A DNA stretch of 46,357 bases from positions 1 to 46,357 of the forward strand of contig JABITN010000071.1 of NCBI GenBank assembly GCA_018700525.1, written 5' to 3'. Under the pieces are notes generated by a model, which had not been told where the DNA came from, did not search any database, and worked only from the letters and a program-made list of their open reading frames with translations. Made by a program: the position numbers and the translations under genes. The DNA comes from Opitutales bacterium. GTDB taxonomy: Bacteria; Verrucomicrobiota; Verrucomicrobiia; Opitutales; Opitutaceae. Positions 6,865 to 39,920 of the stretch are shown one piece after another (the first letter of the stretch is position 1; every line of letters begins with the position of its first letter).

Positions 6865-6867
6865 AAT

Positions 6868-9300
6868 CTACTTTCGGATTATGGTTTCGCTTAAGTTCAA
6901 CAGGGCATGGCAAACATCTGCCAACGCAGCCACTTGAGCGACATCGAGAGTGGTGTCGGTCCGTGAATCGCCCACGCCCAGCAATTGAGAAGCGGCGTCC
7001 GGATTCTTAACGTAGCGGTCCAATCGGCTCGCATAAAGGTCCTCCAAGAGCAATCGCTCGCGGTCTTCAGGCGGTCGCGATAAGAGAACACGAAAAACGT
7101 GGTCAATGGGATCCGCTTCACCCACCCCGACTTCCGCCAAGCGCCGTGAGGCTTCGATATACGTCGGACCATGCAAGGTGACGAGCGCCTGCAACGGCGT
7201 ATTCGTAGACTCGCGCTCGACGCTACAGACGTCGCGATTAGGCGCATCGAATACAGCCATAGCCGGATGCAGGACACCCCGACGCCAGTACGTGTACATG
7301 CTCTTCCGGTAGAGCCCCGGTCCGGTTTCCTGCTCATAGATCTCGGCATGGCTTTCAGGCGCGTTCAGGTCCTCCCAAACCCCTTCCGGCTGATAAGGCA
7401 TGACACTGGGGCCGCCTACCTGTCGCTCAAGCAGACCGCCAATCAACAAAGCCTGATCCCGAATCATCTCAGCAGGTAAGCGAAATGTAGGACCACGGGC
7501 GAGGAGGCGATTTTCCGGATCCTCCAAATTAGGGCGAAAATTAGACGACTGCCGGTAGGTGGCCGACAATACGATAGAGCGAATCAAGTGATGAAGGTCC
7601 CAGTCGTTTCGACGAAATTCGACGGCCAGCCAATCCAACAACGAGGGATGACTGGGCTGCGCTCCCTGAACACCGAAATTGTCAGGCGTATCAACCAGAC
7701 CGATACCGAAAAACTGCTGCCACAAACGGTTGACCGCGACCCGAGCAAAGAGCGGGTTATCGCTGCTCGTCAGCCACTGAGCTAAGCCAAGGCGATCTTG
7801 GGAATACGCATCAAATGGGGGAAGGATTTCAGGCGTGCGGGCTTCGACAGGTTTTCCTGGCTGATCGAAAAGTCCCTGCTCCAAGATATAGCTTTGACGA
7901 GATACAGCCTCCATGACCATAACCTGGATCTTTTCAGCCTCCGGATTGTTCGATTCCTTTGGTTCGTATTCAATGAACGGAGGCGCCCCCTTTGCTTTAT
8001 GTTTGAAGCCTTTCTCCCCAGGTGCGCCCATCTCAGAGCTGGTGTTAAAGAATGCGAACAACGAGTAATAGTCCTTCATCGTTAAGGGATCGTACTTGTG
8101 ATCATGGCATCGCGTACACTCCATCGTCAGACCGAGAAAGAGCGTACCAGCAGTCGTCGTTTTGTCATTGGCATACATGACGCGATACTCTTCATCGATG
8201 ATACCACCCTCGATCGAATGAGGGTGGTTTCGATTGAATCCGGTGGCGATCATCTGCCGCTCGCTTGAATTATCCAGAAGATCGCCGGCCAATTGCTCAG
8301 TGATAAACTGATCATAGGGCATATTTCCGCGAAAGGCCTCGATCACCCAATCACGCCACGGCCACATGCTGCGGGAATTATCGAATTGAAACCCGTTGCT
8401 GTCGGCATAGCGGGCATTATCAAGCCATATAGTAGTCATGCGCTCAGCATAGTCCACACTGCCCAGCAGTCGATCGACGACACGTTCCTCCGCTCGCGGC
8501 GAACCATCAGCTACGAAGGCTTCGATCTCCGCAAGCGTCGGCGGCAAACCGGTCAGATCCTGAGTAACGCGACGCAACCAGGCGCTGCACGTAACTTTAA
8601 TCGCCGGTTCGATACCCTTCGCTTCAAGTCTGGCCAAAACAAACGAATCCACCTTAGTAATCGGCCACGATGTGTTCTCAACCGTGGGGAGCGACGGCGA
8701 TTTCGGAGTTTGAAATGCCCAGTGCCCGTCCCATTGCGCTCCTTCTGCGATCCAGCGTTTCAACAGATCCTTTTCGGAATTCGACAGCGACAAATGAGAA
8801 TCAAGCGGAGGCATGACCTCATCCTCATCCAAGCTCATTATTCGTTCGACCAGCGAGGACGATTCGGGCCTACCGGGCACAATGGCAAACCGTGACGCCT
8901 TCGGCGGTGACTTCGCTGGTAACCCATTCACAGCTCGCAGCATGCTCCCCTCCGCATATTTCACCGCAATCAGATCCGCCATAGCTCGAACCTCCGTATC
9001 CAAGCGCAAGCCACCCTCGCCATTCTCGCTCTCTTCACTGCCATCCGGCCCGTGACATTTGAAGCAACGATCAGACAGAAGCGGTCGGATGTCTGCATTG
9101 AACGAAACCTCCCCAACCGCCCCCCAGCACACAAACAAGAACGGGGCAAAACATGCCAATTTAGGGATAGAAACTCGAGTCTTCACAATAGCGATTGATA
9201 GACTCAGAAGAGAGATTGAACGCAGCGGAACTGCAACAAGAAACAAACGGATCGGCAGCTTACTCGAAGCAACTGCCCCCTTGCCGAGCAATCGTTTCAA
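6868..9300 (-). CDS. PSD1/DUF1549/DUF1553 cytochrome-c-type protein (pair 1)
   Basis: This large exported protein has a single N-terminal c-type haem site (CFKCH, residues 79-83 as drawn), then DUF1549 (about 205-415) and DUF1553 (about 500-760). A second CxxCH occurs inside the DUF1549 part as [11 protein letters not shown], a conserved feature of the family. The drawn start is a TTG at 9300. A GTG at 9186 gives a more usual secretion leader (KTRVSIPK then a hydrophobic core ending near GAVGE), so the true N-terminus is uncertain. The function is unknown; a redox step on carbohydrates is often supposed. It sits 56 bases behind the BNR_4 gene and 3 bases before DUF1501, probably in one operon with the upstream sulfatase. 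Confidence 0.9.
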
Positions 9301-13149: not shown

Positions 13150-15829
<2,680 letters not shown>

Positions 15830-20837: not shown

Positions 20838-22238
20838 CTATGCCAAAATCGGCCTAATCACATTTGCGGCTTCCACCCCAGTGAGCTTCATATCCAAGCC
20901 CTGAAAGGGATAGGCGAATCGTTTGGCGTCGATCCCAAGTTGGTGCAGCATGGTTGCGTGCAAGTCGCGTACGTGCACAACATCCTCGATCGCACTATAT
21001 CCAAGTTCATCCGTCGAGCCGTAGCTGATTCCACCTTTGACTCCGCCGCCTGCCATCCACATGGAAAATCCTTTTATATGGTGATCGCGGCCCGCATCGC
21101 CTTTGCCCTGGAACATGGGTGTGCGTCCAAATTCGCCTCCCCAGACGACCAGCGTATCCTCGAGCATGCCGCGCCGTTTTAGGTCGGTCAGCAGAGCCCA
21201 AGTCGGCCTATCTGTCAGACCACAACAGATATCCATGTATTTCTTGAGGTCGCCGTGATGATCCCAACCGCGATGATAAAGTTGTATAAAGCGAACGCCT
21301 CGTTCGGCCAAGCGCCGTGCCAAAAGGCAATTGGACGCGTAGGAGCCATCGCCTGGGGTCGCTCCGTAGAGATCGAGGGCGCTCTGAGGTTCGTCCGACA
21401 CATCCATTAATCCAGGAACCGAGGTCTGCATGCGATAGGCCATTTCGTAGGCCGCAATACGGGTTTCGATCTCCGGGTTTCGAACCATTAGGTTGCGCTT
21501 GCGATCCAGCTGGCCGATCGCATCAACCAATGCAGCCTGCTGCTTCTGAGATACGCCTTTCGGATTGCTAACGTAGTGTACTGGGTCGCCCGAAGCATTA
21601 AACTCCACACCTTGAAAACGGCTTGGAAGAAATCCCGAAGACCACTGGCGCGAGGCGATCGGCTGAGGATTGCGGCCGCCGACGCTCGTCAGCACGACGA
21701 ACCCTGGCAAATCCTCCGACTCCGATCCTAGACCGTAATTGACCCAAGAACCCATCGATGGCCGACCGCTAATAGCGGTGCCTGTATTCATGAACGTATG
21801 AGCGGGATCGTGATTGATTTGCTCGGTCACCATGGAACGAATAATCGCGATATCATCCGCCATCTTAGCCGTCCAGGGAAGGTAGTCGCTGATCAACTGA
21901 CCGCTTTTTCCGTACCGATTAAACTCGGTCTGGTGCCCGAGCACCTTAAGCTCTTGCCCCTGAAGCTGGGCTATGGGCTGACCGCGGGTAAATGACTCCG
22001 GCATAGGTTTTCCATCGAGCTTGTTAAGGTCCGGCTTATAATCGAAAGTCTCGAGATGGGAGGGACCTCCCGCCATGCAGAGAAAGATAACCCGCTTGGC
22101 CTTGGCGGCAAACCGAGGTAGTTGGATGTTGGATGCGCTCGCGCCAAAAGACGTCGACCCCATGAGAGATCCGAGGGCCGCAGATCCGAGTCCTAGTCCG
22201 GTCTGACCGAGAAATGCGCGTCGCGTTAAAGGGTTCAT
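20838..22238 (-). CDS. DUF1501 protein with Tat-like leader (pair 2)
   Basis: This 466-residue protein starts MNPLTRRAFLGQTGLGLG, a twin-arginine leader. The same hallmarks as pair 1 are present: KRVIFLCMAGGPSHLETFDYKPDLNKLDG, HDPAHTFMNTG, RGWDHHGD, WGGEFGRTPMFQ, GRDHH, and HDLHATMLHQLGIDAKRF close to the end. It starts 10 bases after the stop of the PSD1 gene of the same pair, so the two are one transcript. Its place between that gene and garD suggests work on sugar acids or their precursors in the periplasm, but the activity is not known. Confidence 0.92.
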   Translation of the reverse strand: MNPLTRRAFLGQTGLGLGSAALGSLMGSTSFGASASNIQLPRFAAKAKRVIFLCMAGGPSHLETFDYKPDLNKLDGKPMPESFTRGQPIAQLQGQELKVLGHQTEFNRYGKSGQLISDYLPWTAKMADDIAIIRSMVTEQINHDPAHTFMNTGTAISGRPSMGSWVNYGLGSESEDLPGFVVLTSVGGRNPQPIASRQWSSGFLPSRFQGVEFNASGDPVHYVSNPKGVSQKQQAALVDAIGQLDRKRNLMVRNPEIETRIAAYEMAYRMQTSVPGLMDVSDEPQSALDLYGATPGDGSYASNCLLARRLAERGVRFIQLYHRGWDHHGDLKKYMDICCGLTDRPTWALLTDLKRRGMLEDTLVVWGGEFGRTPMFQGKGDAGRDHHIKGFSMWMAGGGVKGGISYGSTDELGYSAIEDVVHVRDLHATMLHQLGIDAKRFAYPFQGLDMKLTGVEAANVIRPILA

Positions 22239-22248
22239 AGCGATTCGT

Positions 22249-24744
22249 TCAGTTGCGCGTTATCGCTTCATTGAGATTGAGCAGGCCTCGAGCCACCGAC
22301 GTCCATGACGCGAGCTCGAGATTCGAAAGATTCATCGAGCGAGGCGCCCGACCCGTTTCAATCAGCGCAGCGGCCGCGGCCGGATCTGTCCGGTAAATCG
22401 CCTCCGTCGATTCCAACAAGGATCGGAAAACCGCTCGTTCGTCGGAATCAGGTCTACGCGTCAAGGCGAGTTTAAAGGCAAATTCCATACGCTCTTCTAT
22501 CGAAGCGCCGCCTTCCTCGAGAATCCGTTCGGCAAATACGCGTGCGGCCTCGACGAAGGTTGGATCATTGAGCAGAGCGAGCGCCGCATTGGGCGTATTC
22601 GAACGCGAGCGCTCGGCAACGCACTCTTCGCGGCTCGGCGCATCAAGCGTTTTCATGGTCGGGTGGAGAAACATACGCTGCCAATGAACATAGACCCCTC
22701 GGCGCCACTGCCGCGCATCTTCGTGCGACGTATAGCTACGTTCAGGAAAATTCAGATGCCGGTAGTATTCTTCCGGCTGATACGGCTTCACGCTGTCACC
22801 TCCGAGTTCGGTTACCAGCAAGCCGCTCACCGCTAGAGCATTGTCTCGCACCATTTCGGCGGGCAGCCGATACCGAGACTGCCGGGCCACGAGCTGATTA
22901 TAGGGATCGCGTTCGAGTAGTTCCTCCGAGGCAATCGAGGATTGCCGGTAGGCACGGCTCGTTGCCAGCAAACGAATAAAGCGTTTTAAATCCCAGTCAT
23001 TCTCGTAGAATGACACCGCCAAGTAGTCCAATAATTCAGGATTGGCTGGCGGCTGGCCCTGTCCGCCAAAATCAGCCAGGGAAGAAGAAATCCCGCTACC
23101 GAATAATAGGTACCAGAAACGATTCGCGAATACCCGAGCTGTCAACCCGCCAACGCCTCCTTCAGCATCGGTCAGCCAGTTAGCTAAATCGAGACGTGTC
23201 GCAAACTGATTCTCTGGTATATCGATGTTACCCAGAAACTCGGGGATGGCTGCCGAAACAATCTCGCCACTGTCGTCTTGCCAATTGCCACGCGGCAACA
23301 CCCGCATTGTTCTCGGCTCTTGGGCCTCCGTGATCATCGTCCAACGACCGTGCTTCAAATGCGTTTTTTCCCGTTCAACCAAAGCATTCCAATTGTCCCG
23401 CTTCGCTTTGGAAATGCATTCTGTCATTTCTTCCTCTAAAACCGCGATTGCTTCGAGAACCTCTTTTTTAGACTGCTTACCGATTTTGAGAGCTGCTTCT
23501 AGATCAGCTTTTTCAGCCTCCAAGCCCTCGATACGTCCCCATGTATCCTTCCCAGCCAGCAACTTCTTGGCGTCTCGAATTCGCTTGAGCTCGAGCTCTT
23601 GGGCATCCGAAAGGAACAACATCTCCGGGGGCCGATTCGTCGGCAGTGAATTGCCATTATAACCCGCATCGTGAATATCCGCAAAGAACGCGGCCATCGA
23701 ATAATGATCCTTCGTCGTGTAGGGATCGAACTTGTGGTCGTGGCATTGAGCGCAGCCCAAAGTCCCCCCCATCCATACCGCCGAAACATTGCGAACGCGA
23801 TCAGCAGCGTAAATCGCATTGTATTCCTTTTCTTGGATACCCCCTTCATGGGACGTTTGCAGCAGTCGATTGTAGCCCGAGGCAACATTCTGCCATTTCG
23901 TCGGCGCTTCGAGCAAATCTCCCGCCAGCTGCTCGCGAGTGAATTGGTCGAAAGGTAGATTCTCGTTGAACGAACGAATCACATAATCTCGATAGGGAGA
24001 GATGTTGTGGTCTTGGTCGCCATGATAGCCGACCGTATCCGCATAGCGCACCAGATCCAGCCAGTACATCGCCATGCGTTCGCCAAAATGCGGCGATTCC
24101 AATAGGTCATCGACCACCTGCTCCAAGGTCGCTTCGCCATTGACGAACGCAGCCGCCTTATCGGGCGTGGGCGGTAGCCCAGTTAAATCGAAATAGAGCC
24201 GACGGATCAACGTAACCGGTTCGGTTTCCGGGGAGGGAGCCAGTCCTTCGTTTTCCAATCGAGCCAAGACGAAGCGATCGACGGGATTGATTGGCCACGC
24301 CTCATCGGCAACCCGCGGCAGTTCGGTTTTAATCGGCCGTTCGTAGGTCCAGGGAGCCGAATATTCCGCTCCCTCTACGATCCATCGCTCGAGCAAATTC
24401 ACCTCCTCCAGGCTAAGCGCCTTGTGCGATTCCTCAGGAGGCATCGGATCCTCGATATCCTTGATCCGAGCTACGAGTTCGCTTTGCTCCAGATCTCCGG
24501 GGATCAAGGCCGCGAAACCGCCGAGGTCCATCCGAGAACCTTCCTCCGTATCCAGACGCAGTCCCCCGGAATCCCGAAGCCCCCCCTTACGCTCGCTCGG
24601 ATCGGGACCATGGCAATGGAAACACTTCTCAGACAGAATCGGCCTAATATCACGATTGAAATCAATCGTCTCAATCGCCCCAGCAAGCGCCCCTGGAAGC
24701 AGAGACACAATCAAGGCTATGGCTGATAAAGCGGGTCGTAACAT
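22249..24744 (-). CDS. PSD1/DUF1549/DUF1553 cytochrome-c-type protein (pair 2)
   Basis: This 831-residue secreted protein has a normal signal peptide (residues 1-22, ending ALAGA). The c-type haem motif CFHCH lies at residues 41-45, DUF1549 at about 150-360 with the second CxxCH (CAQCHDHKFDP), and DUF1553 at about 520-790. Between the two DUFs lies a charged, probably coiled-coil segment of about 80 residues (from KRIRDAKKLL to KAKRDNW) that is absent from pair 1 and present in pair 3. The ATG at 24744 is supported by the leader. Promoter and regulation are not obvious; a dispersed repeat occupies the upstream gap. Function is unknown; it is probably a periplasmic redox enzyme acting with the DUF1501 partner. 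Confidence 0.92.
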   Translation of the reverse strand: MLRPALSAIALIVSLLPGALAGAIETIDFNRDIRPILSEKCFHCHGPDPSERKGGLRDSGGLRLDTEEGSRMDLGGFAALIPGDLEQSELVARIKDIEDPMPPEESHKALSLEEVNLLERWIVEGAEYSAPWTYERPIKTELPRVADEAWPINPVDRFVLARLENEGLAPSPETEPVTLIRRLYFDLTGLPPTPDKAAAFVNGEATLEQVVDDLLESPHFGERMAMYWLDLVRYADTVGYHGDQDHNISPYRDYVIRSFNENLPFDQFTREQLAGDLLEAPTKWQNVASGYNRLLQTSHEGGIQEKEYNAIYAADRVRNVSAVWMGGTLGCAQCHDHKFDPYTTKDHYSMAAFFADIHDAGYNGNSLPTNRPPEMLFLSDAQELELKRIRDAKKLLAGKDTWGRIEGLEAEKADLEAALKIGKQSKKEVLEAIAVLEEEMTECISKAKRDNWNALVEREKTHLKHGRWTMITEAQEPRTMRVLPRGNWQDDSGEIVSAAIPEFLGNIDIPENQFATRLDLANWLTDAEGGVGGLTARVFANRFWYLLFGSGISSSLADFGGQGQPPANPELLDYLAVSFYENDWDLKRFIRLLATSRAYRQSSIASEELLERDPYNQLVARQSRYRLPAEMVRDNALAVSGLLVTELGGDSVKPYQPEEYYRHLNFPERSYTSHEDARQWRRGVYVHWQRMFLHPTMKTLDAPSREECVAERSRSNTPNAALALLNDPTFVEAARVFAERILEEGGASIEERMEFAFKLALTRRPDSDERAVFRSLLESTEAIYRTDPAAAAALIETGRAPRSMNLSNLELASWTSVARGLLNLNEAITRN

Positions 24745-29390: not shown

Positions 29391-29810
29391 AGAAAAACAA
29401 GAATACGGGATTAAGAGGAAGAGAATCTTCAAAAAAACTTACACGTGTTTGTTTTTCACAAACCGGGTGTATTGGAAAGCTAAAACTCAGAAATCGCCAA
29501 CCCGCGTAACCAAAGCCAAACAATCTCATTCCCGATTAGGATCTGACTAATTTGTTCAGTCGCCACTTAGCAGGTAGCTGGCTTTTTCACTCGTATCCCA
29601 ACGGAATCAATCCCTTCGATCCCCAAATTCCCATTTTCTCAATCCGCATAGCTCGTAAAACCCCACGCAATTAAACCGACTACAGGTCAACTATTGACTC
29701 GAAAAGCCCTCGAAACTTCCCTAATTAACGGGAGTCTACTAAATCAGGTCGGCTTTTACAGGACGATAAACCCTTTCTAACTAATCGCCTCCAAAAACGG
29801 AAAGATCATC
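29391..29810. promoter_or_regulatory. Divergent promoter region between the TRAP operon and the FAD oxidoreductase gene
   Basis: This 420-base gap holds the promoters of two divergent units. Visible sites are an 8-base palindrome ACACGTGT (29441-29448), 51 bases in front of the dctP ATG, and an inverted repeat GTCAA-CTA-TTGAC (29686-29698), 112 bases in front of the plus-strand gene. No coding frame or RNA gene was recognised. Both palindromes are short enough to arise by chance. Confidence 0.35.
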
Positions 29811-31634
29811 ATGACACTACCACGCAGAAATTTCATCAGCCAACTCAGTCTAGCATCGGTTTCGCTACTGGCCACCCATCCTCTTTTCGGTAAGACTGCT
29901 AAGTCGAACGACCGCTCCTCGGTCCTCGTCGAGACCGCCCATTTTAAGAAACTCGGCGGCTGGATGCTCGACAACCAATTCGAAAACCACCTCGGATTCA
30001 GCTACCTCCTAGCTCACGGACTCGGCAATCCAGTCGAAAACGCCAGCGCTAATATAGTCTTCCCGAAAACAGGACGCTACCACGCTTGGGTTTTGACCAA
30101 AGACTGGTGCCCTGGCGAATGGGAATCGCCCGGGCAATTCAAAGTACTTCTCGGAGACAAGCCGCTTCCGGAAACCCTAGGAACCGAAACCGACTGGACT
30201 TGGCAATCAGGAGGAACCGTAGACGTTGGAAAAGACCAGCTCTCAACCTCGATCTCCCTGCAAGACCTAACCGGATTCGAAGGTCGCTGCTCGGCAATCT
30301 ATTTCAGCCTAGACTCCAACGACACTCCCCCGATCGACAGCAAGACGCTACCACGCTGGAGGAGAGAAAAAGTAGGCCTACCCTCAAGCGCAGTCGACCA
30401 AGGACACTTCGACCTCATCATCGTCGGCGGCGGAATTGCCGGCTGCGCGGCTGCCATCGCAGCAGATTCCCAAGGAACGAAAGTAGCCGTCATCCACAAC
30501 CGCCCGGTACTCGGCGGAAACGCCAGCAGCGAAATTCGCGTTCACACCGAAGGCATTCATGGTCAAGCCGGCGATATCCTCGAAAAGATCGATACGCCTC
30601 ACTACCCGAACTCCGACCCCCTAGCCCTAGACGCCGACATTAATCGAATGGGCAACATGGCCTCCTTGCGCAACGTCGACTACTTCCTCAGCCACACGAT
30701 GGTCTCCGTTGAAATGCAGGAGGGACGTATCCACGCGGTCAATGCAATTGAAACCGCGAATGGTACTCTTAAACGTTTCACCGCCGATCAATTCATCGAC
30801 AGCAGCGGTGACGGATGGGTTGGCTATATGGCCGGTGCCGAATTCCGTTACGGCCGCGAATCGAAACACGAATTTAACGAAGGATGGGATGAGCACGGCG
30901 AGCTTTGGTCTCCAGAAAAGCCCGATAATCGCGTCATGGGATCGAGCGTTATGTGGTACACCCGCAAAACCGATCGGCGCGTAGACTTCCCGACCGTGCC
31001 GTGGGCAAAGCCAGTGGCCAACAATCATGTCGCTACAGAAGGCGAATGGCAGTGGGAATATTCCCACAACGACCTCCACCAGATCCACGATGCCGAAACG
31101 ATTCGCGACCATATGTTTCGAGCGATTTACGGTTCCTATTCGAACGCCATCAAGCATCGCCAAAATGCCAATATGGAGCTAGACTGGATTTCTTTCCTCG
31201 TCGGTAAACGCGAATCACGACGAATCATAGGTGCCCACATTTTCACCGGTATAGATGCCCGCGACTCCATCGAGTTTCCTGATACCGTCGTTACCGAAAA
31301 ACGTAAAATCGACGTCCACTACCAAGAAAAATTACTTGGCCGTCCAGTGGACTTCCTTTCCGAAGCGATCTTTCAAAAAATCAAGAACACCTACTACTAC
31401 ATTCCCTATCGTTCTCTCTACTCCCGCGACGTGCCCAACCTACAAATGGCTGGACGTTGCTTCAGTTGCACGCATATCGGCCTGGGTGGTCCACGCGTAA
31501 TGAACACCTGCGGTCAAATGGGCGTAGCAACCGGCTTCGGAGCGGCGCTCTGCATTAAGCACAAGGCTGACCCCGCTAATATCGGAGAAAAGTACATAAC
31601 CGAGCTAAGAACCCTCTGCGGATACTCCACCTGA
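29811..31634 (+). CDS. Exported FAD-dependent oxidoreductase with N-terminal beta-sandwich
   Basis: This 607-residue protein has a twin-arginine leader (LPRRNFISQLSLASVSLLA). Residues about 38-175 look like a jelly-roll sugar-binding-type domain (VFPKTGRYHAWVLTKDW). An FAD-binding Rossmann core follows, with GGGIAG at 206-211 in DLIIVGGG and a second FAD contact in GGNASSEIRVHTEG. Near the C-terminus, AGRCFSCTHIGLGGPRVMNTCGQMGVATG is the conserved FAD/substrate lid. It belongs to the FAD_oxidored family found in polysaccharide-utilisation loci. The substrate is unknown but probably a sugar or glycoside. Tat export fits a cofactor loaded in the cytoplasm. It is followed by a membrane flavoprotein/ApbE pair that could take its electrons. 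Confidence 0.88.
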   Translation: MTLPRRNFISQLSLASVSLLATHPLFGKTAKSNDRSSVLVETAHFKKLGGWMLDNQFENHLGFSYLLAHGLGNPVENASANIVFPKTGRYHAWVLTKDWCPGEWESPGQFKVLLGDKPLPETLGTETDWTWQSGGTVDVGKDQLSTSISLQDLTGFEGRCSAIYFSLDSNDTPPIDSKTLPRWRREKVGLPSSAVDQGHFDLIIVGGGIAGCAAAIAADSQGTKVAVIHNRPVLGGNASSEIRVHTEGIHGQAGDILEKIDTPHYPNSDPLALDADINRMGNMASLRNVDYFLSHTMVSVEMQEGRIHAVNAIETANGTLKRFTADQFIDSSGDGWVGYMAGAEFRYGRESKHEFNEGWDEHGELWSPEKPDNRVMGSSVMWYTRKTDRRVDFPTVPWAKPVANNHVATEGEWQWEYSHNDLHQIHDAETIRDHMFRAIYGSYSNAIKHRQNANMELDWISFLVGKRESRRIIGAHIFTGIDARDSIEFPDTVVTEKRKIDVHYQEKLLGRPVDFLSEAIFQKIKNTYYYIPYRSLYSRDVPNLQMAGRCFSCTHIGLGGPRVMNTCGQMGVATGFGAALCIKHKADPANIGEKYITELRTLCGYST

Positions 31635-31642
31635 GAGGCTCT

Positions 31643-31700
31643 TCGAAGGTCGCGACAGATCTCCGATTGGCATTTTCCATCAAGACACCTGAACAATCGC
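31643..31700. repeat. Degraded copy of the GGTAGCG palindromic element
   Basis: This stretch aligns loosely with the left half of the nested palindrome at 4076-4137. It has AAGGT-GCGAC-GATCTCCGA, then a GAACAATCGCATCGCTCA run that parallels GAACGACTGCGTCGTTCAG. It sits just after the FAD oxidoreductase stop. The match is imperfect and the right half is missing. Confidence 0.35.
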
Positions 31701-31770
31701 ATCGCTCACCCCGATCGCCAGGAAAATTGTATTGATCAGTCCGATACGATAAGCTTCATTAATTTACAGA

Positions 31771-32820
31771 ATGAAGCACTTCGTCAATTTTGCATTGCTC
31801 ATTGCATTCCTCGTCTTGGCGACGAGCGCGGCGTTACGGTTTTTTCAACCGTTTAGTTTAGCAGTCACGCGAATACATATCGTTTTCGGTTCGCTCATTC
31901 TAATTCTCGTCGGACTACACCTTTCATCTCGATTGGGATACTTCGCAAAGATGCTCAAGCAGCGCCCGCGAAAACCATTTTCATCCCCCAACTCCATCCG
32001 ATTACTCCTCCTCCCTATCGTCGTTTGCGCCTACCTGCTTTCCGCCTGCCTATCAAACTGGTGGCCCGTACCTCAACTGCTCTCCATCGGTTACGAATCT
32101 AAAAACCGAGCTACCATTTTTCGTGCCGAAAGCGGCGCTTCTATCAGATCGATAGACAATCGAACCCAACTTAAACGCAATACCAGCCAAGATGCTTCCG
32201 TCCTCGTCGAAATCGATTGGGGATCCGCCTTCGATCCAGTAGCGGAGTTCCCTACTCCCTTTTCAGGCGCTCGTCCTCAGATCGCAATCTGGGCCGAATC
32301 ATCCGTCGGCGCCCTGATTGAAACCTTCTTCGTCTCGGAAGAAAGCGCCTTTTCAGAATCTTTCGAATGGGACGGAAATGAACGCCGACGCGTGGACATC
32401 CTTCCCGTCTGGCGCCATCAATTCACTCTTGCCTCCGGGATCGAACCAGACGGCGACATCGACACGTATTCAGGAGCCACCCCCGAACACAGTTTTTCTA
32501 TAGAAAACTACCTGCACGAAGACCCAAATGGCTTCTACCTGTCCGTCGAAATCAACGTTCCCAACGACTCCAACGAACATTATCACTCAGACCAGGATAC
32601 CAACGAAGGTGGCTACACCTTGCCGGGCATCGGCCAACCTTCCATTTACTACAGCGCATACATCGACCCCAATGCCGCCCAGCGATACTACCTGATGGAG
32701 TTCGTTGGCCATGGTGGAAGCAGTAGTCAGCAAAGCGGCGACATTTACTACGACTCGAGCGAACTGACAACTGCTCGCGACCTCATCGAAAAAATACTCG
32801 TACGTATCCAAAGGCCATAA
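31771..32820 (+). CDS. Membrane protein with haem-b-like helix and periplasmic flavinylation-motif domain (DUF2271-like)
   Basis: This 349-residue protein has three transmembrane segments (about 5-22, 33-52, 77-96) and a periplasmic tail. The second helix has two His 14 residues apart (H36, H50), as in DUF4405/cytochrome b561-type helices that bind haem b. The positively charged loop 54-76 puts the tail outside. The tail resembles DUF2271 (ARPQIAIWAESSVGALIETFFVS) and has DTYSGAT at 231-237, matching the D-x-x-S/T-G-A-T motif on whose Thr (here T237) ApbE places FMN. The apbE gene starts 1 base after its stop. I read it as a membrane electron carrier linking quinone, haem and covalent FMN. 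The family assignment is from memory. Confidence 0.65.
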   Translation: MKHFVNFALLIAFLVLATSAALRFFQPFSLAVTRIHIVFGSLILILVGLHLSSRLGYFAKMLKQRPRKPFSSPNSIRLLLLPIVVCAYLLSACLSNWWPVPQLLSIGYESKNRATIFRAESGASIRSIDNRTQLKRNTSQDASVLVEIDWGSAFDPVAEFPTPFSGARPQIAIWAESSVGALIETFFVSEESAFSESFEWDGNERRRVDILPVWRHQFTLASGIEPDGDIDTYSGATPEHSFSIENYLHEDPNGFYLSVEINVPNDSNEHYHSDQDTNEGGYTLPGIGQPSIYYSAYIDPNAAQRYYLMEFVGHGGSSSQQSGDIYYDSSELTTARDLIEKILVRIQRP

Positions 32821-32821
32821 A

Positions 32822-33817
32822 ATGCCATCGAAGCTTCGCTACCATACCTTCGCAACGCTTGCCGCCCTTTGGCCTAGTCTACCTTTATTCATCCTCACCT
32901 CCTGCTCGCGTCCACAGACTGACGATTACCTTAAGGGCAACGCGATGGGCACTTTTTACACCGCTCAATATTGGAGCAAGCAAAACGTCCGTCACCAAGA
33001 GCTAACTACCGAGATCGAGAGCCTCCTCGACCATTTCGAAAAGCAACTCTCCAATTGGCGACCGGATAGCTGGGTTAATCGATTCAACCAAGCGCCGGCC
33101 AACGAAGCAGTTCCCGTCCCCGTCTACGCCTTCGAAATCCTCGAACTCTGCCTCGAACTCGCCGAACGATCCGAAGGAGCCTTCGACCCGACAATTGCTC
33201 CTTTGATCGAACTATGGGGGTTCGGAACGCGCAGAGACAAAAAAGTCCCCGAGGAAAGCGAAATCCAAGCCGGTATTGATATGATCGGATACCGGAAATT
33301 GATACTCGATCGAAAAAATCGAACCCTTCGAAAAACCCAAGATGGAATACAGCTCAATTGCTCTGCCGTAGCCAAAGGATATGCAGCCGATCTTATCGCT
33401 CGTCTCTTCGAAGCAAACGGTATCCAAAACTTCCTCATAAACATCGGCGGAGAAGTCACTGCGAAAGGAACCTATATCGATGGCTCCGTTTGGCAAATCG
33501 GAATCGCTAGTCCACGCGGCGACAGACGCCAAGGAAAACCGGAAGTCATCTTTCCTCTGAAAAACCGTTCGCTAGCAACCAGCGGACATTCCCAGCGAGC
33601 ATTCGTTATCGACGGAATACGCTACTCGCATATCCTCGACCCAAGAACTGGCTACCCAACGCCAACCGAAACCGCCAGTGCCACCGTCCTTGCCCCCAAC
33701 TGCGCCCTTGCGGACGGCCTCGCCACCATCGCTCTCATCCTAAATGAAAAACGATTGACCCAGCTTCTCGAATACTACGACGCGGAAGTCTACAGGTCCA
33801 CCTGGAGCACCCTTTAG
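32822..33817 (+). CDS. FAD:protein FMN transferase (ApbE), lipoprotein
   Basis: This 331-residue ApbE enzyme transfers FMN from FAD to a Thr in partner proteins in the periplasm, using Mg2+. A lipobox (LTSC, C28) marks it as a lipoprotein. Hallmarks are AMGTFYTAQY at 41-50, a GAFDPTIAPLIELWGFG stretch, LNCSAVAKGYAADLIA, INIGGEV, SGHSQR, the metal/FAD site HILDPRTGYPTP, and ALADGLAT. All are present in the usual order and length. It directly follows the membrane protein carrying the S-G-A-T motif, its likely substrate. Confidence 0.95.
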   Translation: MPSKLRYHTFATLAALWPSLPLFILTSCSRPQTDDYLKGNAMGTFYTAQYWSKQNVRHQELTTEIESLLDHFEKQLSNWRPDSWVNRFNQAPANEAVPVPVYAFEILELCLELAERSEGAFDPTIAPLIELWGFGTRRDKKVPEESEIQAGIDMIGYRKLILDRKNRTLRKTQDGIQLNCSAVAKGYAADLIARLFEANGIQNFLINIGGEVTAKGTYIDGSVWQIGIASPRGDRRQGKPEVIFPLKNRSLATSGHSQRAFVIDGIRYSHILDPRTGYPTPTETASATVLAPNCALADGLATIALILNEKRLTQLLEYYDAEVYRSTWSTL

Positions 33818-34172
33818 CCTCGAATATTCCCATCATGAAACCGTCCGCCCCCTCGAACTGGTGAAATAATCGTCGAGCTAAGCATTATCAGTCTCATAAC
33901 AAGCGCAGCATATCACGGGTCCTAGCTGAAACCTTCAGAATTCCCGCACTACGGGCGTTTAAAACAGTCTCTTAGAAAGAGTCTAATAAGTCCGTTTTCA
34001 ATTGTTTGAGATTGCGAGGCAGATAATTGACCCGCCAACATGATGAATGTCGCCTCAGCGAGACGAGCGACAATATGTTAATCAGCAGAAACATGACTAT
34101 AAAGGGCGGCTCTTATTGGAGACTTTCCAAGAAAATGAAAGGTCTTCGGTGATTAAAGACTCATCCAATAGC
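33818..34172. other. Gap between convergent genes, no gene recognised
   Basis: This 355-base stretch separates apbE (plus) from the DgoD-like gene (minus). Only short inexact inverted repeats are visible, such as CAGTCTCTTAGAAAGAGTCT near 33968-33987, which might help end transcription. An open frame that begins at 34047 runs into the neighbouring gene on the other strand and looks non-coding. Confidence 0.4.
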
Positions 34173-35381
34173 TTACCAGTCAACAACCGACCCATCATCT
34201 TCATCGAACTGAGGGAGGTACGCGCGAGGTTCGCCAATCTCGTCATCGATTCGATTTTGGTCGATCGTTATTCCTAATCCAGGACCCGTCGGGATCGGGC
34301 GATACCCATCCTTAACTGCAGGCATCGGCTCAGCGAGAAGATCGTGCTCTCTATCTCCGCGCTCCTGAACCATAAAATTAGGGATACAGGCCGCCACCTG
34401 CAGACTCGCCGCAAGAGAACATGGCCCATTTGGATTGTGCGGAGCGATCGGCGCGTAGTAGGCCTCTGCCATACCCGCGATTACTTTCAATTCAGTGATG
34501 CCGCCAGCGTAGTTGACATCTGGTTGCAAAATCATCGCCGCACCTTTTTCAAGTATCTCTCTAAAACCCCATTTCAGAAATACGCGTTCGCCGGTAGCTA
34601 TAGGAATATGCGTTTTTTTCGCCAAATCAGCCATCACATCGACATTAAGAGCCTGAACAATTTCCTCATAAAACCAAGGTTTATAAGGTTCGAGCTCCTT
34701 GATGAGAACACTGGCAGTCGTGGGCTGAACCGCTCCATGAAAATCGATTCCGATATCCACATCATCACCCATCTTCTTACGCAAGGCCCCAAATCGCTCA
34801 ACCACCTCTCCAATAAACTTGCTACCTTCAGCATATTTAAACGCTTTCCGAGCAGCGCTAGGGCCGACTTTCATTGCCCTCACGCCGGTTTTCTTATCAG
34901 GAGTGCCATAAACGAAGGCTTTATCGCGTGTTGGGCCGCCGAGTAGCTTGTAAACCGGTACGCCGTAACACTTACCTGCGATATCCCAGAGAGCTTGGTC
35001 TATTCCCGAAGAAATTGCCGATTTGATAGGACCTCCGCGATAGAAAGCTCCACGGTGAATAGCCTGCCAGTGATGGACCACTGGACGCGGATCCTTGCCA
35101 ATCAAGTAATCCCCCACCTCCAATGCGCCCGCCGCGCAAGCCTTGGCATCGTCCTTGAGCATCTCTCCCCAGCCGGTTATCCCAGCATTCGTCGATATTT
35201 TAACGAAAACCCAAGAATTCTTTAGAACAAAGGTCTCGAGCTTCGTGACCTTGATGTTGTCTTTCGGACTAATTGGGGCTGCTTTAACGATCGGTTGCGA
35301 GACGTCCAATCCTACGAGTCCGCCTGCTCCTATCAGAGCTGTTTGAAGCCACGTGCGGCGATTTAATTTCGATTGGGGCAT
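34173..35381 (-). CDS. Exported galactonate-dehydratase-like enolase-superfamily enzyme
   Basis: This 402-residue protein has a twin-arginine leader (LNRRTWLQTALIGAGGLVG), which is unusual for a normally cytoplasmic family. The body is D-galactonate dehydratase-like: WGEML, GAFYRGGPIKSAISSGIDQALWDIAGK, IGIDFHG, FYEE, ATGER and PHNPNGP. The metal ligands and acid-base residues would be D213, H215, E239, E265 and H315. This is a constant +30 shift from E. coli DgoD as I recall it, while the N-terminal domain is shifted by about 42. That implies about 12 residues missing between them, where the first barrel helix should be (around 158-168). It may dehydrate a sugar acid in the periplasm or have changed function. 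It lies 102 bases behind the DUF1501 gene of the sigma-factor operon and may belong to it. Confidence 0.78.
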   Translation of the reverse strand: MPQSKLNRRTWLQTALIGAGGLVGLDVSQPIVKAAPISPKDNIKVTKLETFVLKNSWVFVKISTNAGITGWGEMLKDDAKACAAGALEVGDYLIGKDPRPVVHHWQAIHRGAFYRGGPIKSAISSGIDQALWDIAGKCYGVPVYKLLGGPTRDKAFVYGTPDKKTGVRAMKVGPSAARKAFKYAEGSKFIGEVVERFGALRKKMGDDVDIGIDFHGAVQPTTASVLIKELEPYKPWFYEEIVQALNVDVMADLAKKTHIPIATGERVFLKWGFREILEKGAAMILQPDVNYAGGITELKVIAGMAEAYYAPIAPHNPNGPCSLAASLQVAACIPNFMVQERGDREHDLLAEPMPAVKDGYRPIPTGPGLGITIDQNRIDDEIGEPRAYLPQFDEDDGSVVDW

Positions 35382-35483: not shown

Positions 35484-36950
35484 TCAAGCCAACAGTCCCT
35501 TAACCACTTTCCCGTGAACGTCGGTCAACCTAAAACGTCTACCTTGATAGCGGTATGTCAAACGTTCGTGATCGACTCCAAGTAGATGCATGATCGTAGC
35601 TTGAAAATCATGAACATGCACCGGGTCTTGCACGATATTCCACGCGAAATCATCCGTCTTGCCATAACGAATCCCCGGTTTCACCCCACCGCCAGCCATC
35701 CAGAGACTGAAGGCCCGACCATGATGATCTCGACCGTGCTTTGTCTCGTTTTCGATATTGCCCTGACCAAAAACCGTGCGTCCAAACTCCCCTGCCCATA
35801 TAACCAGCGTATCCTCAAGCAAACCCCGCTGCTTAAGATCTTTAACGAGGGCCGCCGAGGGCTGATCCGTATCGCGGCATTGAATCTCCAATTGCGTAGG
35901 CAAATTACCGTGCTGATCCCAACCCGCATGCATGAGCTGAATAAAACGAACGCCTTTCTCCGCGAGGCGACGGGCCAGCAAGCAATTGCGCGCATACGAC
36001 CCAGGACGGTGCACATCAGGTCCGTACATATCGAGAATATGCTGCGGCTCCGTGGTGATATCCGTCAATTCCGGTACCGAACTCTGCATGCGAAAAGCCA
36101 TTTCGTACTGGGCGATTCGCGTCGCCGTTTCAGGATCCCCATAATCCTCATACTTCTGTTGATTCAAAGTCTCCAAGTCTTTCAACAGACCTTTGCGCAA
36201 TTCCCTCGGCACACCTTTAGGATTAGACAAATAAAGCACAGGATCCCCTTCTCCGCGAAACCGTACACCCTGGTATTTAGAAGGAATGAAACCGCTTCCC
36301 CAATAGTAATCGAATAAGAGCTGCCCGCAGGAGTTCTCGCGATCCCGCGAAGTCATCGCCACGAACGTGGGCATATTCTCATTCTCACTTCCGAGACCAT
36401 ACGACACCCACGCTCCCATGCTTGGGCGACCAGGGATTTGCGAGCCCGTGAGGAAAAACGTACATGCAGGCGCATGATTGATGGCTTCCGTATGCATGGA
36501 ATTCACAACGCAAATATCGTCAGCAATACCACCCGTATAAGGAAGCAGCTCCGACAATTCCAAACCGCTATTTCCATAGCGACGGAAGGGCTTGATCGAG
36601 GGCAGAACGGGAAGTTCCAATTGCCCCGAAGTCATGGTTGTCAGGCGCTGACCCATGCGAACCGAATCTGGTAACTGCACGCCCCTATACTTCGACAGCC
36701 CGGGTTTCGGATCGAGTAGGTCAACATGAGATGGTCCACCTCCCTGCATTAAATAGATGACACGTTTGGCCTTGGCGAAATGGTGAGGCAAACCATCGAT
36801 CGGACCGCTGCCCGAGGCCTGCCCTGTAGCGCCGTTCAAACCCAAGCCTCCCGCCATGCTCGCAAGGGCCGCACCACCCAAGCCAGTTGCCGTTCTAGAA
36901 AAGAACTGTCGTCTTGTTATCGCTATATCTCGTTCGAAAAAGGGGTTCAT
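35484..36950 (-). CDS. DUF1501 protein with Tat-like leader (pair 3)
   Basis: This 488-residue protein opens with ITRRQFFSRTATGLGGAALASMAGGLG, a twin-arginine leader. Hallmarks match the other two copies: KRVIYLMQGGGPSHVDLLDPKPGLSKYRG, HAPACTFFLTG, HAGWDQHGN, WAGEFGRTVFGQG, GRDHH, and HDFQATIMHLLGVDHERL. In GWDQHG a Gln replaces the first of the two His seen in pairs 1 and 2, and AGEFGRT replaces GGEFGRT. It starts 12 bases after the stop of the PSD1 fusion, so it belongs to the sigma-factor operon. Confidence 0.92.
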   Translation of the reverse strand: MNPFFERDIAITRRQFFSRTATGLGGAALASMAGGLGLNGATGQASGSGPIDGLPHHFAKAKRVIYLMQGGGPSHVDLLDPKPGLSKYRGVQLPDSVRMGQRLTTMTSGQLELPVLPSIKPFRRYGNSGLELSELLPYTGGIADDICVVNSMHTEAINHAPACTFFLTGSQIPGRPSMGAWVSYGLGSENENMPTFVAMTSRDRENSCGQLLFDYYWGSGFIPSKYQGVRFRGEGDPVLYLSNPKGVPRELRKGLLKDLETLNQQKYEDYGDPETATRIAQYEMAFRMQSSVPELTDITTEPQHILDMYGPDVHRPGSYARNCLLARRLAEKGVRFIQLMHAGWDQHGNLPTQLEIQCRDTDQPSAALVKDLKQRGLLEDTLVIWAGEFGRTVFGQGNIENETKHGRDHHGRAFSLWMAGGGVKPGIRYGKTDDFAWNIVQDPVHVHDFQATIMHLLGVDHERLTYRYQGRRFRLTDVHGKVVKGLLA

Positions 36951-36962
36951 GGATACGTAAGG

Positions 36963-39920
36963 TTACTCTCGAGTGAGAAATTCATCAGTGTTGAAAATGA
37001 TTTGAGCCACGTTGGTGTAGGAAGCGTACTCTTCCATAGCGATCGCCTCCGGAGCATCGCTCTCGCCCACAGTGGCCAAAGCGGCAGCATCATCCGGACT
37101 ATCTCGGTAATACGAACGGGATCGTTCTAGGGCCGTATTCAACGCGCCGGCTTCCACGTCACTCGGATCGCGACCCAAAGCCTGTCGAAACGCATAACTT
37201 AATCGAGTTTCATCAGTCTCGCCGCCGTAAGTCAGTATTCTCTCGGCAAACACTCGTGCCGCTTCGACGAAAGTCGGATCGTTAAGCGTCGTTAGCGCAT
37301 GGAGCGGCGTATTGGTTGTGGCACCTTTAACCTGACAAACTTGGCGATTCGGACTATCGAACATATTTGGCGGACCGATAGTACGACGCCAGAACGTGTA
37401 CAAGCTCCTTCGATACAGATCCGTTCCCGACGAAGGAGTATAGCTGAATTGTTCAAAGCTAAACTCGTGCCATAGGCCTTCCGGCTGATAGGGATAAACG
37501 GGACGCCCTCCCACATCCGTTCTCAATAGCCCGCTGGCAAACAAAGCCGAATCCCGAATCAACATTGCCGGAAGGCGAAACCGAGCGCCACGGGCAAGTA
37601 GTCGATTCTCAGGATCGACATCCACCAACTCGGGCCGCGCTTTGGAGCTCTGACGATAAGTCGCGCTCGTTACCATCAGACGGTGCATGTGTTTCATATC
37701 CCAGCCTGTTTCTACGAATTCCGTCGCCAGCCAATCAAGCAAAGCCGGATGCGAAGGCTGCTCGCCCTGAACTCCAAAATCTTCCGCTGTTTTCACCAAG
37801 CCCGTTCCAAAATGATGCTGCCAGTAACGATTGACGATCACCCGAGCGGTAAGCGGGTTTTCAGGCGAAACGAGCCATTCGGCTAGCCCAAGTCTATTCG
37901 ACGGTGCATCCGTATCCAAGTCGAACAACGCCTCCGGCGTTCCCGGCAACACGCTTTCGCCAGGAGATTCGTAGTCGCCGCGATTCAGGACAAAGGTCTC
38001 CCTTCGCTCCTCGCGTTCTTCCATAATCATGACCGCGACAATGCCCGCCTGAACCTTCTCCAACTGATTATTCAGCTGATTGATCGTTTTCTGAATAGCC
38101 TTCCATTCCTCAGGCGCGTCATTTTCCAAGTAATACCTACGCAAGGACGGATTCGTGCCATCCGAACCCTCTGTCACAGTGTTTCTCAATAGTAGAAATC
38201 GATTCCGATCCAAGGACTTCGGCGGATTCTCGCGAGTAATAATTTCCCACTTCACCTGAGCCGCCGCTATCTCCAACTCGGCCGCTTCGAGTTTTTCTTT
38301 CTCTGTTTGAATACGGGCTTTAAAATCATCCCGTTCTTTAGCTTGATCCTCCGTTGGAAGTTCGAGCACTGGTTCAGCTAGCATAATTCGATTAGCCCGG
38401 TAATCCGCCCTTCCGCCTTCCGGCACGTTATTAAAATAGGCGGAGAAACGATAGTAATCCTTTTGCGTCAATGCGTCGTATTTGTGATCGTGACATTGGG
38501 CGCAAGCCATGGTCATTCCTAGCCATGTCGTCGCCGTAGTATCCACTCTATCGAATACATAGTTATTTCGCTGCTCCTCCGGAATCGCTCCACCTTCGTT
38601 ATTGAGCATGTGATTGCGATTAAAGCTGGTCGCGATGAGCTGATCGTTCGTCGGTTCACCAAGTAGATCGCCCGCGATTTGTTCGATAGTGAACTGATCG
38701 AATGGCTTATTCTCATTCATCGAATCAACCACCCAATCCCGCCAAGGCCAGGCATGCCGATCGCCATCCTGCTGGAAGCCATTCGAGTCCGCATACCGTG
38801 CCGCATCCAGCCAGGGCAACGCCATACGCTCGCCGAAATGCGGCGATGCCAGCAAACGCTCGACTTGCCTTTCATAAGCACCAGAAAAAGTATCGCTTAA
38901 AAATGAAGCAATCTCCTCAGGCGTCGGAGGCAGGCCAATCAAATCCAAAGAAAGACGTCGTAGCAAGGTTCTGCGATCAGCTTCAGAAGACGGAGCGATA
39001 CTCTCTTCTTCAAGCCGCGACAATATAAACGAATCTATTGGATTACGCGTCCAATCGTAATTTTCCGGCTTAGGAACTTCGGAGCGAAGCGGCGAAATAA
39101 AGGCCCAATGTCCCTCGTATTCGGCTCCTTGCTCAATCCAACGCTCAAGAATTCGACGCTGCTCGGCGGTCACAACGCGTCCCGAATCCGGCGGCGGCAT
39201 AACATCCTCCTCGCTCTCTTCGAGCAATCGAAGAATCAATTCGCTCTCGGCTGCGTTACCGGGAGCAATCACTTGATAGCCATCCCGATCGCGTATCGCG
39301 TCTTCGAAAGAGTCCAAACGCAATTCGCCTTCACGCTTATTGGCATCGGGACCATGACAAAAAAAGCAATTCTCAGATAGAATGGAGCGGACATGGGCAT
39401 TAAACGTAACCGTTTCCGGGATACTGCCCTTCGATACGACCACACCTCCCTTTACCCGACCGGTTTTGGCTGGATGCACTACAGTCGCCGAGCCGATGCC
39501 AGGCATCTCGCGAGGCACTCCTTGCTTCGATTCGGTTTCAGTCGAATGGGCTAACGTCGGCCGAGATTCAACGATTCCATTCTCCGCTTTCCGCAGCGAG
39601 AAAACAAACACCCCAACCACCAGGGCTGCAGCTATCGGCCACACCGCAATTCGAGCGAATCGAGCCGGAAAAGAAAGAACTGGCGACAATGGAGGCTGTA
39701 AAAGTTCGTTTGCCAACCCGCGCGATTCAATGACATCCGTATACGGCAACTCTGTAGCAATTCGAATCGTATCCAAATAAATACGGGCCGCTTCCCTATC
39801 CGAACGAATCAACTCGTCCAATTCGTCTACCGCTTCAGCGTTATCTTCGCCATCTTCCAAGCGACTCGCGAGAATGGCGATGCGCCTGACTAAATCTTGG
39901 TTTTTTCGATTCGAGTCCAT
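36963..39920 (-). CDS. Anti-sigma-like / transmembrane / PSD1-DUF1549-DUF1553 fusion (pair 3)
   Basis: This 985-residue protein is unlike the other two PSD1 proteins because it has no signal peptide. Residues 1-65 (ending ELIRSDREAARIYLDTIRIATELPY) look like the short cytoplasmic helical domain of verrucomicrobial/planctomycete anti-sigma or FecR-type proteins. A transmembrane helix follows at 91-109 (IAVWPIAAALVVGVFVFSL), then a 60-residue linker. The periplasmic part has the haem site CFFCH (185-189), DUF1549 with CAQCHDHKYDA, a charged coiled-coil-like segment, and DUF1553. The frame is unbroken. It starts 18 bases after the ECF sigma gene and ends 12 bases before DUF1501. The layout suggests a membrane enzyme or sensor that holds the sigma factor and releases it on a periplasmic signal. 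Confidence 0.88.
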   Translation of the reverse strand: MDSNRKNQDLVRRIAILASRLEDGEDNAEAVDELDELIRSDREAARIYLDTIRIATELPYTDVIESRGLANELLQPPLSPVLSFPARFARIAVWPIAAALVVGVFVFSLRKAENGIVESRPTLAHSTETESKQGVPREMPGIGSATVVHPAKTGRVKGGVVVSKGSIPETVTFNAHVRSILSENCFFCHGPDANKREGELRLDSFEDAIRDRDGYQVIAPGNAAESELILRLLEESEEDVMPPPDSGRVVTAEQRRILERWIEQGAEYEGHWAFISPLRSEVPKPENYDWTRNPIDSFILSRLEEESIAPSSEADRRTLLRRLSLDLIGLPPTPEEIASFLSDTFSGAYERQVERLLASPHFGERMALPWLDAARYADSNGFQQDGDRHAWPWRDWVVDSMNENKPFDQFTIEQIAGDLLGEPTNDQLIATSFNRNHMLNNEGGAIPEEQRNNYVFDRVDTTATTWLGMTMACAQCHDHKYDALTQKDYYRFSAYFNNVPEGGRADYRANRIMLAEPVLELPTEDQAKERDDFKARIQTEKEKLEAAELEIAAAQVKWEIITRENPPKSLDRNRFLLLRNTVTEGSDGTNPSLRRYYLENDAPEEWKAIQKTINQLNNQLEKVQAGIVAVMIMEEREERRETFVLNRGDYESPGESVLPGTPEALFDLDTDAPSNRLGLAEWLVSPENPLTARVIVNRYWQHHFGTGLVKTAEDFGVQGEQPSHPALLDWLATEFVETGWDMKHMHRLMVTSATYRQSSKARPELVDVDPENRLLARGARFRLPAMLIRDSALFASGLLRTDVGGRPVYPYQPEGLWHEFSFEQFSYTPSSGTDLYRRSLYTFWRRTIGPPNMFDSPNRQVCQVKGATTNTPLHALTTLNDPTFVEAARVFAERILTYGGETDETRLSYAFRQALGRDPSDVEAGALNTALERSRSYYRDSPDDAAALATVGESDAPEAIAMEEYASYTNVAQIIFNTDEFLTRE

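Follow-up and report, generated by a model that had tools for sequence, protein, structure and literature searches.

On balance, a membrane protein encoded in the stretch of Opitutales bacterium DNA analysed here (46,357 nucleotides, hereafter the window) is probably a one-chain flavocytochrome b, which would act as a homodimer and wire an exported FAD oxidoreductase, whose substrate may be a sugar, to the quinone pool. The case is built on the domain make-up of this fusion protein, the conservation of its candidate cofactor sites, its genomic linkage to the oxidoreductase, and the matching subtypes of the two partners. The features concerned are the following:

29811..31634, + strand, exported FAD oxidoreductase, proposed redox partner, 607 aa (PF12831, 224.8 bits against 27)
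29913..30320, + strand, N-terminal CBM6/35/36-like domain of the oxidoreductase, about residues 35-170 (fold match)
30411..31607, + strand, FAD_oxidored domain of the oxidoreductase, residues 201-599 (PF12831 profile positions 1-412 of 416)
31771..32820, + strand, membrane protein, proposed flavocytochrome b, DUF4405-like/DUF2271-like fusion, 349 aa (stop codon 32818-32820)
31774..31845, + strand, predicted helix 1, residues 2-25 (structure model)
31858..31929, + strand, predicted helix 2, residues 30-53, holding H36 and H50 (structure model)
31876..31878 and 31918..31920, + strand, codons of H36 and H50 (ORF translation)
31993..32055, + strand, predicted helix 3, residues 75-95 (structure model)
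32461..32481, + strand, ApbE-type motif DTYSGAT, D231 to T237, with T237 as the proposed FMN site (ORF translation)
32822..33817, + strand, apbE, FAD:protein FMN transferase, 331 aa (PF02424, 270.8 bits against 25.6, E 1.7e-80)

Domain organization of the membrane protein

The first-pass annotation, made from the sequence alone, had described a 349-residue protein with DTYSGAT at residues 231-237, and both statements were exact when the sequence was rechecked. The neighbouring apbE was likewise correctly placed one base past the stop codon, its ATG being at 32822, and the two histidines assigned to a single helix both fall inside the predicted helix 30-53. The AlphaFold model from which the helix limits were taken, and for which it was used exclusively, is weak (mean pLDDT 63.5, and below 50 for the motif segment 227-240); past the last predicted helix, it gives a largely beta domain, in which the motif lies. 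The topology is also a prediction. The loop formed by residues 54-74 contains six Lys or Arg and no Asp or Glu, and according to the positive-inside rule such a basic loop would be cytoplasmic, which suggests that the DTYSGAT domain is periplasmic. By the same rule, H36 would lie toward the outside of the membrane and H50 toward the inside.

In terms of sequence families, the protein resembles a fusion between the haem b membrane part of DUF4405 and the ApbE-flavinylated part of DUF2271. The DUF4405 profile (PF14358) matches residues 4-51 with 23.7 bits (E 7e-5), below its cut-off of 26.7, and the DUF2271 profile (PF10029) faintly matches residues 165-239 with 13 bits (E 0.085), below its cut-off of 27.3. 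As both cut-offs are missed, the protein is called DUF4405-like and DUF2271-like, and not a member of either family. Among its relatives, the DUF4405 match is found in 35 of 40 and the DUF2271 match in 10 of 40 (E≤0.01). Run against the PDB sequences, the fusion profile had no match up to E 10; a fold search with the weak model gave none at E≤0.001, and a second one nothing above Z 7.7. A PepSY-like or MsrQ-like cytochrome was also considered and set aside, as the Pfam scan returned neither PF03929/PF16357 nor PF01794 at E≤1.

Conservation of the histidine pair and the ApbE motif

The relatives were gathered from 45 full-length matches, to which L073 was added and from which six duplicates were removed, giving 40; L113, a lipoprotein without helices, was then taken out and L122 brought in, so that the set again counts 40 non-redundant fusions, which are related and hence not independent. 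A further 31 matches were partial and were left out; most of them are DUF2271-like lipoproteins that lack helices, and the others are split or short copies. The first-pass annotation had proposed to follow T237, H36, and H50 across homologues, and this check bears it out: H36 and H50 are invariant in all 40 fusions, and residue 237 is Thr in 38 and Ser in the other two. Kept in 40 non-redundant relatives, residue 237 and the His pair are more than a chance occurrence.

The residues preceding position 237 are more variable. Positions 234-237 read SGAT in 21 fusions, AGAT in four, SAAT in four, SSPT in three, and SSAT in two, while SSDT, TAAT, TGTT, TGST, SGAS, and SSAS occur once each; a motif other than SGAT is thus found in 19 of the 40. 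In a review (PMC12052999, available in part), the motif recognized by ApbE is written D-x-x-[ST]-G-A-[ST], and one tested protein is reported in which replacing Thr by Ala abolishes flavinylation and replacing Gly by Ala lowers it. The window locus conforms to this pattern, with DTYSGAT in the fusion and apbE at 32822 in the same cluster. In 13 of the 40 cases, apbE lies within 3 kb of the fusion; eight of these members have SGAT, and five have SAAT, SSAT, TGST, or SSPT, an indication that ApbE may also accept looser motifs. Among the remaining fusions, at least two (L013 and L098) are at a contig end. ApbE was found in all 18 fusion-holding genomes tested (the window's own; G078, G120, G127, G128, and G145; and 12 of 12 more), so that members without a neighbouring apbE can still be modified. 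It is also present in G012, a genome with the lipoprotein form only. At the window locus apbE adjoins the fusion, as the first-pass annotation noted, but the recurrent partner across relatives is the FAD oxidoreductase (immediate neighbour in 32 of 40) rather than apbE.

A DUF2271 protein has been reported to be flavinylated by its cognate ApbE, and its Thr-to-Ala change abolishes the modification (PMC8238504, available in part). Flavinylation of the fusion is, by our rough estimate, very likely. Alternatively, most members could be unflavinylated, with a structural Thr-Pro, an ApbE that serves other proteins such as those of the DUF3570 type, and a fusion that would simply be a cytochrome b with a docking domain. 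The frequency of motifs other than SGAT, the limited number of neighbouring apbE genes, and the two further ApbE in the window's genome, one of them beside a DUF3570 protein, fit this alternative. It is nevertheless highly improbable, as SGAT occurs in the window protein and 20 others, Thr or Ser is kept in 40 of 40, the odd motifs occur in five apbE-linked members, and the Gly-to-Ala change of the tested protein lowers flavinylation without abolishing it (PMC12052999).

Several other loci carry related arrangements. L121 and L126 have the order apbE, oxidoreductase, cytochrome with the motif SSPT, and constitute a natural test of ApbE motif strictness. The fusion copies at L134:7193-8288 and L133:7471-8217 are split over two frames or shortened, and look broken. 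L019:6707-7402 and L020:6082-6780 encode helix-free lipoproteins related to the periplasmic domain, each behind a Gfo/Idh-type gene (identified by eye), and the L019 lipoprotein has TGPT where SGAT is expected. At L082-L106, mostly from Bacteroidales, lipoproteins match about residues 169-347, and in most of the loci the next gene encodes a protein of some 175 aa; the fetched flanks contain no gene labelled apbE. In the window's genome (G000), contig C116 (L021:7446-10151) has a gene for a DUF3570 protein, in which DAISGAT occurs close to the N-terminus, followed by apbE and by a gene for a thioredoxin-like protein (assigned by eye); this is the known type of DUF3570 flavinylation, and DUF3570 precedes ApbE in L139, L142, L143, and L145 as well. 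The ApbE encoded next to the fusion has a lipobox-like LTSC, also recognized by eye.

Candidate haem sites and proposed dimer

Binding of haem by the fusion is also very likely, again as an approximate judgement. The proposal that the helix with H36 and H50 carries haem b is strengthened by the conservation of both residues and by the DUF4405-like part, but it has to be amended in one respect, as the His pair must serve two haems. A single haem with H36 and H50 as its two axial ligands was rejected: 14 residues apart in one helix, their geometry would forbid it. With this spacing, each histidine needs a partner ligand from another helix. The other recurrent histidines in residues 1-100 are at position 3 (19 of 40) and position 53 (5 of 40 only); with no further conserved histidine in this region, a homodimer would be the simplest source of the remaining ligands, which may come from a second copy of the chain or from another protein. 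The H36/H50 spacing also resembles that in the two-haem helices of cytochrome bc1.

Among the closest known systems are the DUF4405 cytochromes and FezC. A purified DUF4405 protein contains haem b, FezC is likewise a haem b cytochrome, and its authors modelled it as a homodimer (PMC11334425, available in part). The conserved central histidines of these proteins have their counterpart in the invariant H36 and H50. Unlike the DUF4405 layout, with six helices and four central histidines per chain (PMC11334425), the window chain has three predicted helices and two histidines, to which the motif-bearing domain is added. The available portion of PMC11334425 makes no mention of a DUF4405-DUF2271 fusion.

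Genomic linkage to an FAD oxidoreductase

The gene upstream of the fusion encodes the 607-aa oxidoreductase, whose twin-arginine start (RRNFIS) was recognized by eye. The first-pass annotation had pointed to an exported FAD oxidoreductase just upstream as electron donor or acceptor, and such a partnership now appears likely. A PF12831 oxidoreductase is the immediate same-strand neighbour (less than 300 bases away) of 32 of the 40 fusions, and lies within 3 kb of 34. These counts were made on all ORFs, the oxidoreductase spanning two of them in L076 and L120. None was found within 3 kb of the other six (L016, L080, L102, L130, L131, and L132), of which L130-L132 constitute a separate group. Five members were found later and are outside the 40: an oxidoreductase adjoins three of them (L179, L180, and L185), and none is adjacent at L181 or at L183, where the contig ends about 606 bases upstream.

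Linkage is accompanied by matching subtypes. Scored against one seed pair per subtype, the oxidoreductase and the cytochrome agree in 32 of 34 pairs, the exceptions being L128, which in addition has the opposite gene order, and L129. Both subtypes coexist in eight genomes, where subtype 1 and subtype 2 cytochromes each lie beside their own kind of oxidoreductase; the exception L129 comes from one of these genomes, G439. The cultured relative Pelagicoccus mobilis has both subtypes (L081 and L108). The evolutionary distances of the two proteins correlate with r 0.915, which partly reflects shared descent, over the 33 pairs with an oxidoreductase ORF longer than 400 aa (34 pairs were used for the subtypes), and this value was reached by 0 of 2000 shuffles. 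In the window's genome, 22 PF12831 matches occur in 4.8 Mb, many of them short FAD-binding segments, so that chance adjacency should be rare, although the 40 fusions are not independent. The six genomes searched have between 15 and 44 matches each, with short FAD-binding segments and split pieces counted.

These data also bear on a different function, in which the fusion would serve iron uptake as a transmembrane ferric reductase, in the manner of the PepSY-like/DUF2271 clusters, and the oxidoreductase would be a mere neighbour in the same regulon. Such clusters have been linked to iron (PMC8238504), and the oxidoreductase is missing near 6 of the 40 fusions. Its presence within 3 kb of the 34 others with nearly always matching subtypes, together with the absence of any iron-uptake family among the subset of neighbours scanned with Pfam, makes a ferric reductase decidedly improbable.

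A scan of positions 29400-34200 returned no promoter-like and three terminator-like sites, both numbers being below their shuffle means (3.5 and 5.8). Elsewhere in the window's genome, on contig C122 (L117:3765-6093), a second pair of subtype 2 is found, with the motif SGAS, sulfatase genes on either side, and no apbE within 3 kb; with the window pair, this makes the window's genome one of the eight that hold both subtypes.

Possible carbohydrate substrate and direction of electron flow

For the flavin, haems, dimer, direction, quinone, and substrate, we infer the following scheme. A three-helix, half-size DUF4405-type cytochrome would be joined to a periplasmic domain of DUF2271 type, and ApbE, here encoded next door, would flavinylate Thr237 of this domain. 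In the homodimer, His36 and His50 of each copy would hold two stacked haems b, one outer and one inner. The substrate oxidised by the upstream exported FAD oxidoreductase may be a carbohydrate, possibly a uronate or some other sugar from pectin or sulfated glycans, and electrons would pass from the sugar to FAD, FMN-Thr237, the outer haem, the inner haem, and finally (mena)quinone. The sugar-oxidising direction is a roughly even call.

The first clue to a carbohydrate substrate lies in the oxidoreductase itself. Its AlphaFold model has a mean pLDDT of 58.6; the N-terminal beta domain is predicted fairly well, and much of the remainder is poor. This domain has the beta-sandwich fold of CBM6/35/36 chains (Z 11.1-12.4, rmsd 2.1-2.7, 112-132 residues aligned), among them 8j3x (Z 12.4, rmsd 2.2, 132 aligned), 5fui (Z 12.0, rmsd 2.1, 116 aligned), and 2w47 (Z 11.6, rmsd 2.6, 126 aligned). 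Cry toxin domains and a GH115 domain match at similar Z, so that the CBM-like fold is no proof of sugar binding. The domain was seen in one model, of subtype 1; in the subtype 2 protein P0002, the FAD domain starts at residue 45, which leaves no room for it.

Gene neighbourhoods provide the second clue. The window encodes a pectate lyase, DctP, MR_MLE, a galactarate/altronate dehydratase, SMP-30/gluconolactonase, a sulfatase, and LacI. Genes for MR_MLE, DHDPS-family proteins, sulfatase, aldo-keto reductase, alcohol dehydrogenase, and transporters are found at the subtype 1 loci L013, L014, and L015, a sulfatase gene at L017 (also subtype 1), and a carbohydrate esterase gene at L079. Among the seven subtype 2 loci with scanned neighbours, a sulfatase is near six (L018, L099, L117, L123, L124, and L125), and the seventh, L103, has a beta-lactamase-family protein. 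These neighbours were picked, not sampled, and sugar genes are common in such genomes.

Electrons might also flow the other way, from quinol through the haem and FMN-Thr237 to an FAD enzyme reducing a periplasmic substrate, as in flavinylated fumarate and urocanate reductases. Exported FMN-linked FAD reductases are indeed known (PMC8238504), and the weak PDB sequence matches of the oxidoreductase, limited to its FAD-binding segment, include flavocytochrome c fumarate reductases. The PF00890 profile of these reductases does score above its cut-off (38.5 bits against 20.4), but its best stretch covers residues 201-238 only and not the whole domain, and the neighbouring genes resemble sugar and sugar-acid breakdown more than anaerobic respiration. 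The reverse direction is accordingly considered unlikely.

Two further observations concern the window at large. A 733-aa protein with two PF00141 peroxidase stretches, of catalase-peroxidase type, is encoded at 13628-15826 in a sulfatase/sugar region, and three DUF1501 and DUF1553-type pairs are found at 5440-9300, 20841-24744, and 35487-39920 (the DUF1553-type member of the third by eye).

Relation to known systems and distribution

Flavinylated DUF2271 proteins, DUF4405 cytochromes, and flavin-wired FAD enzymes are already known. Membrane-linked FAD sugar dehydrogenases, in which an exported FAD enzyme and a redox subunit feed the respiratory chain, share this overall layout with the proposed system; they typically differ from it by their GMC-type enzymes and c-type cytochromes. 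The DUF2271 substrates of ApbE that work with PepSY-like cytochromes have in common with the fusion a small periplasmic [ST]GA[ST] domain, a nearby apbE, and a route through a membrane cytochrome (PMC8238504). In those clusters, however, the PepSY-like cytochrome is a separate protein and many are linked to iron, whereas here a DUF4405-like cytochrome shares one chain with the motif-bearing domain, and an exported FAD oxidoreductase recurs as the partner. The FMN-bind fumarate and urocanate reductases (PF00890) similarly have an exported FAD enzyme wired to the membrane through ApbE-attached FMN (PMC8238504); here, by contrast, the enzyme belongs to PF12831, and it is the membrane cytochrome, instead of the enzyme, that would bear the FMN site.

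The literature search, supplementary tables aside, turned up no DUF4405/DUF2271-like fusion in a single chain with a matching PF12831 enzyme. Tentatively, and at somewhat less than even chance, the two genes could constitute an undescribed respiratory module, made of an exported PF12831 sugar oxidoreductase and a matched, one-chain, covalently flavinylated, homodimeric cytochrome b. It would occur in the window's phylum and a few Blastopirellula relatives, with two or more copies in a genome that serve different sugars, and with an ApbE motif partly relaxed to S-x-x-T-P. PF12831 proteins are numerous in these genomes, yet the accession appears in a single paper of the literature searched, and a matched membrane carrier would place this subset outside the cytoplasm, tied to the respiratory chain. 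Such a two-gene system would allow flavinylation, haem transfer, and substrate to be tested jointly, while the odd motifs beside apbE would probe the strictness of ApbE recognition.

Profile and protein searches gave matches in 7 of 150 genomes of the window's taxonomic family, of which six, counting that of the window itself, are full length. At the level of its phylum, matches occur in 20 of 387 genomes, and several are weak or partial. In the phylum of Blastopirellula, 18 of 392 genomes have matches, of which only three are strong, and in that of Parabacteroides 65 of 247, all but four below 46 bits. From the latter phylum, L181:7201-8088 encodes a fusion-like protein with NNAT at the motif, which adjoins a sulfatase-like gene (by eye); no FAD oxidoreductase was found in the 16 kb of this locus. 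Pelagicoccus mobilis and Blastopirellula marina are among the named species that carry the fusion.
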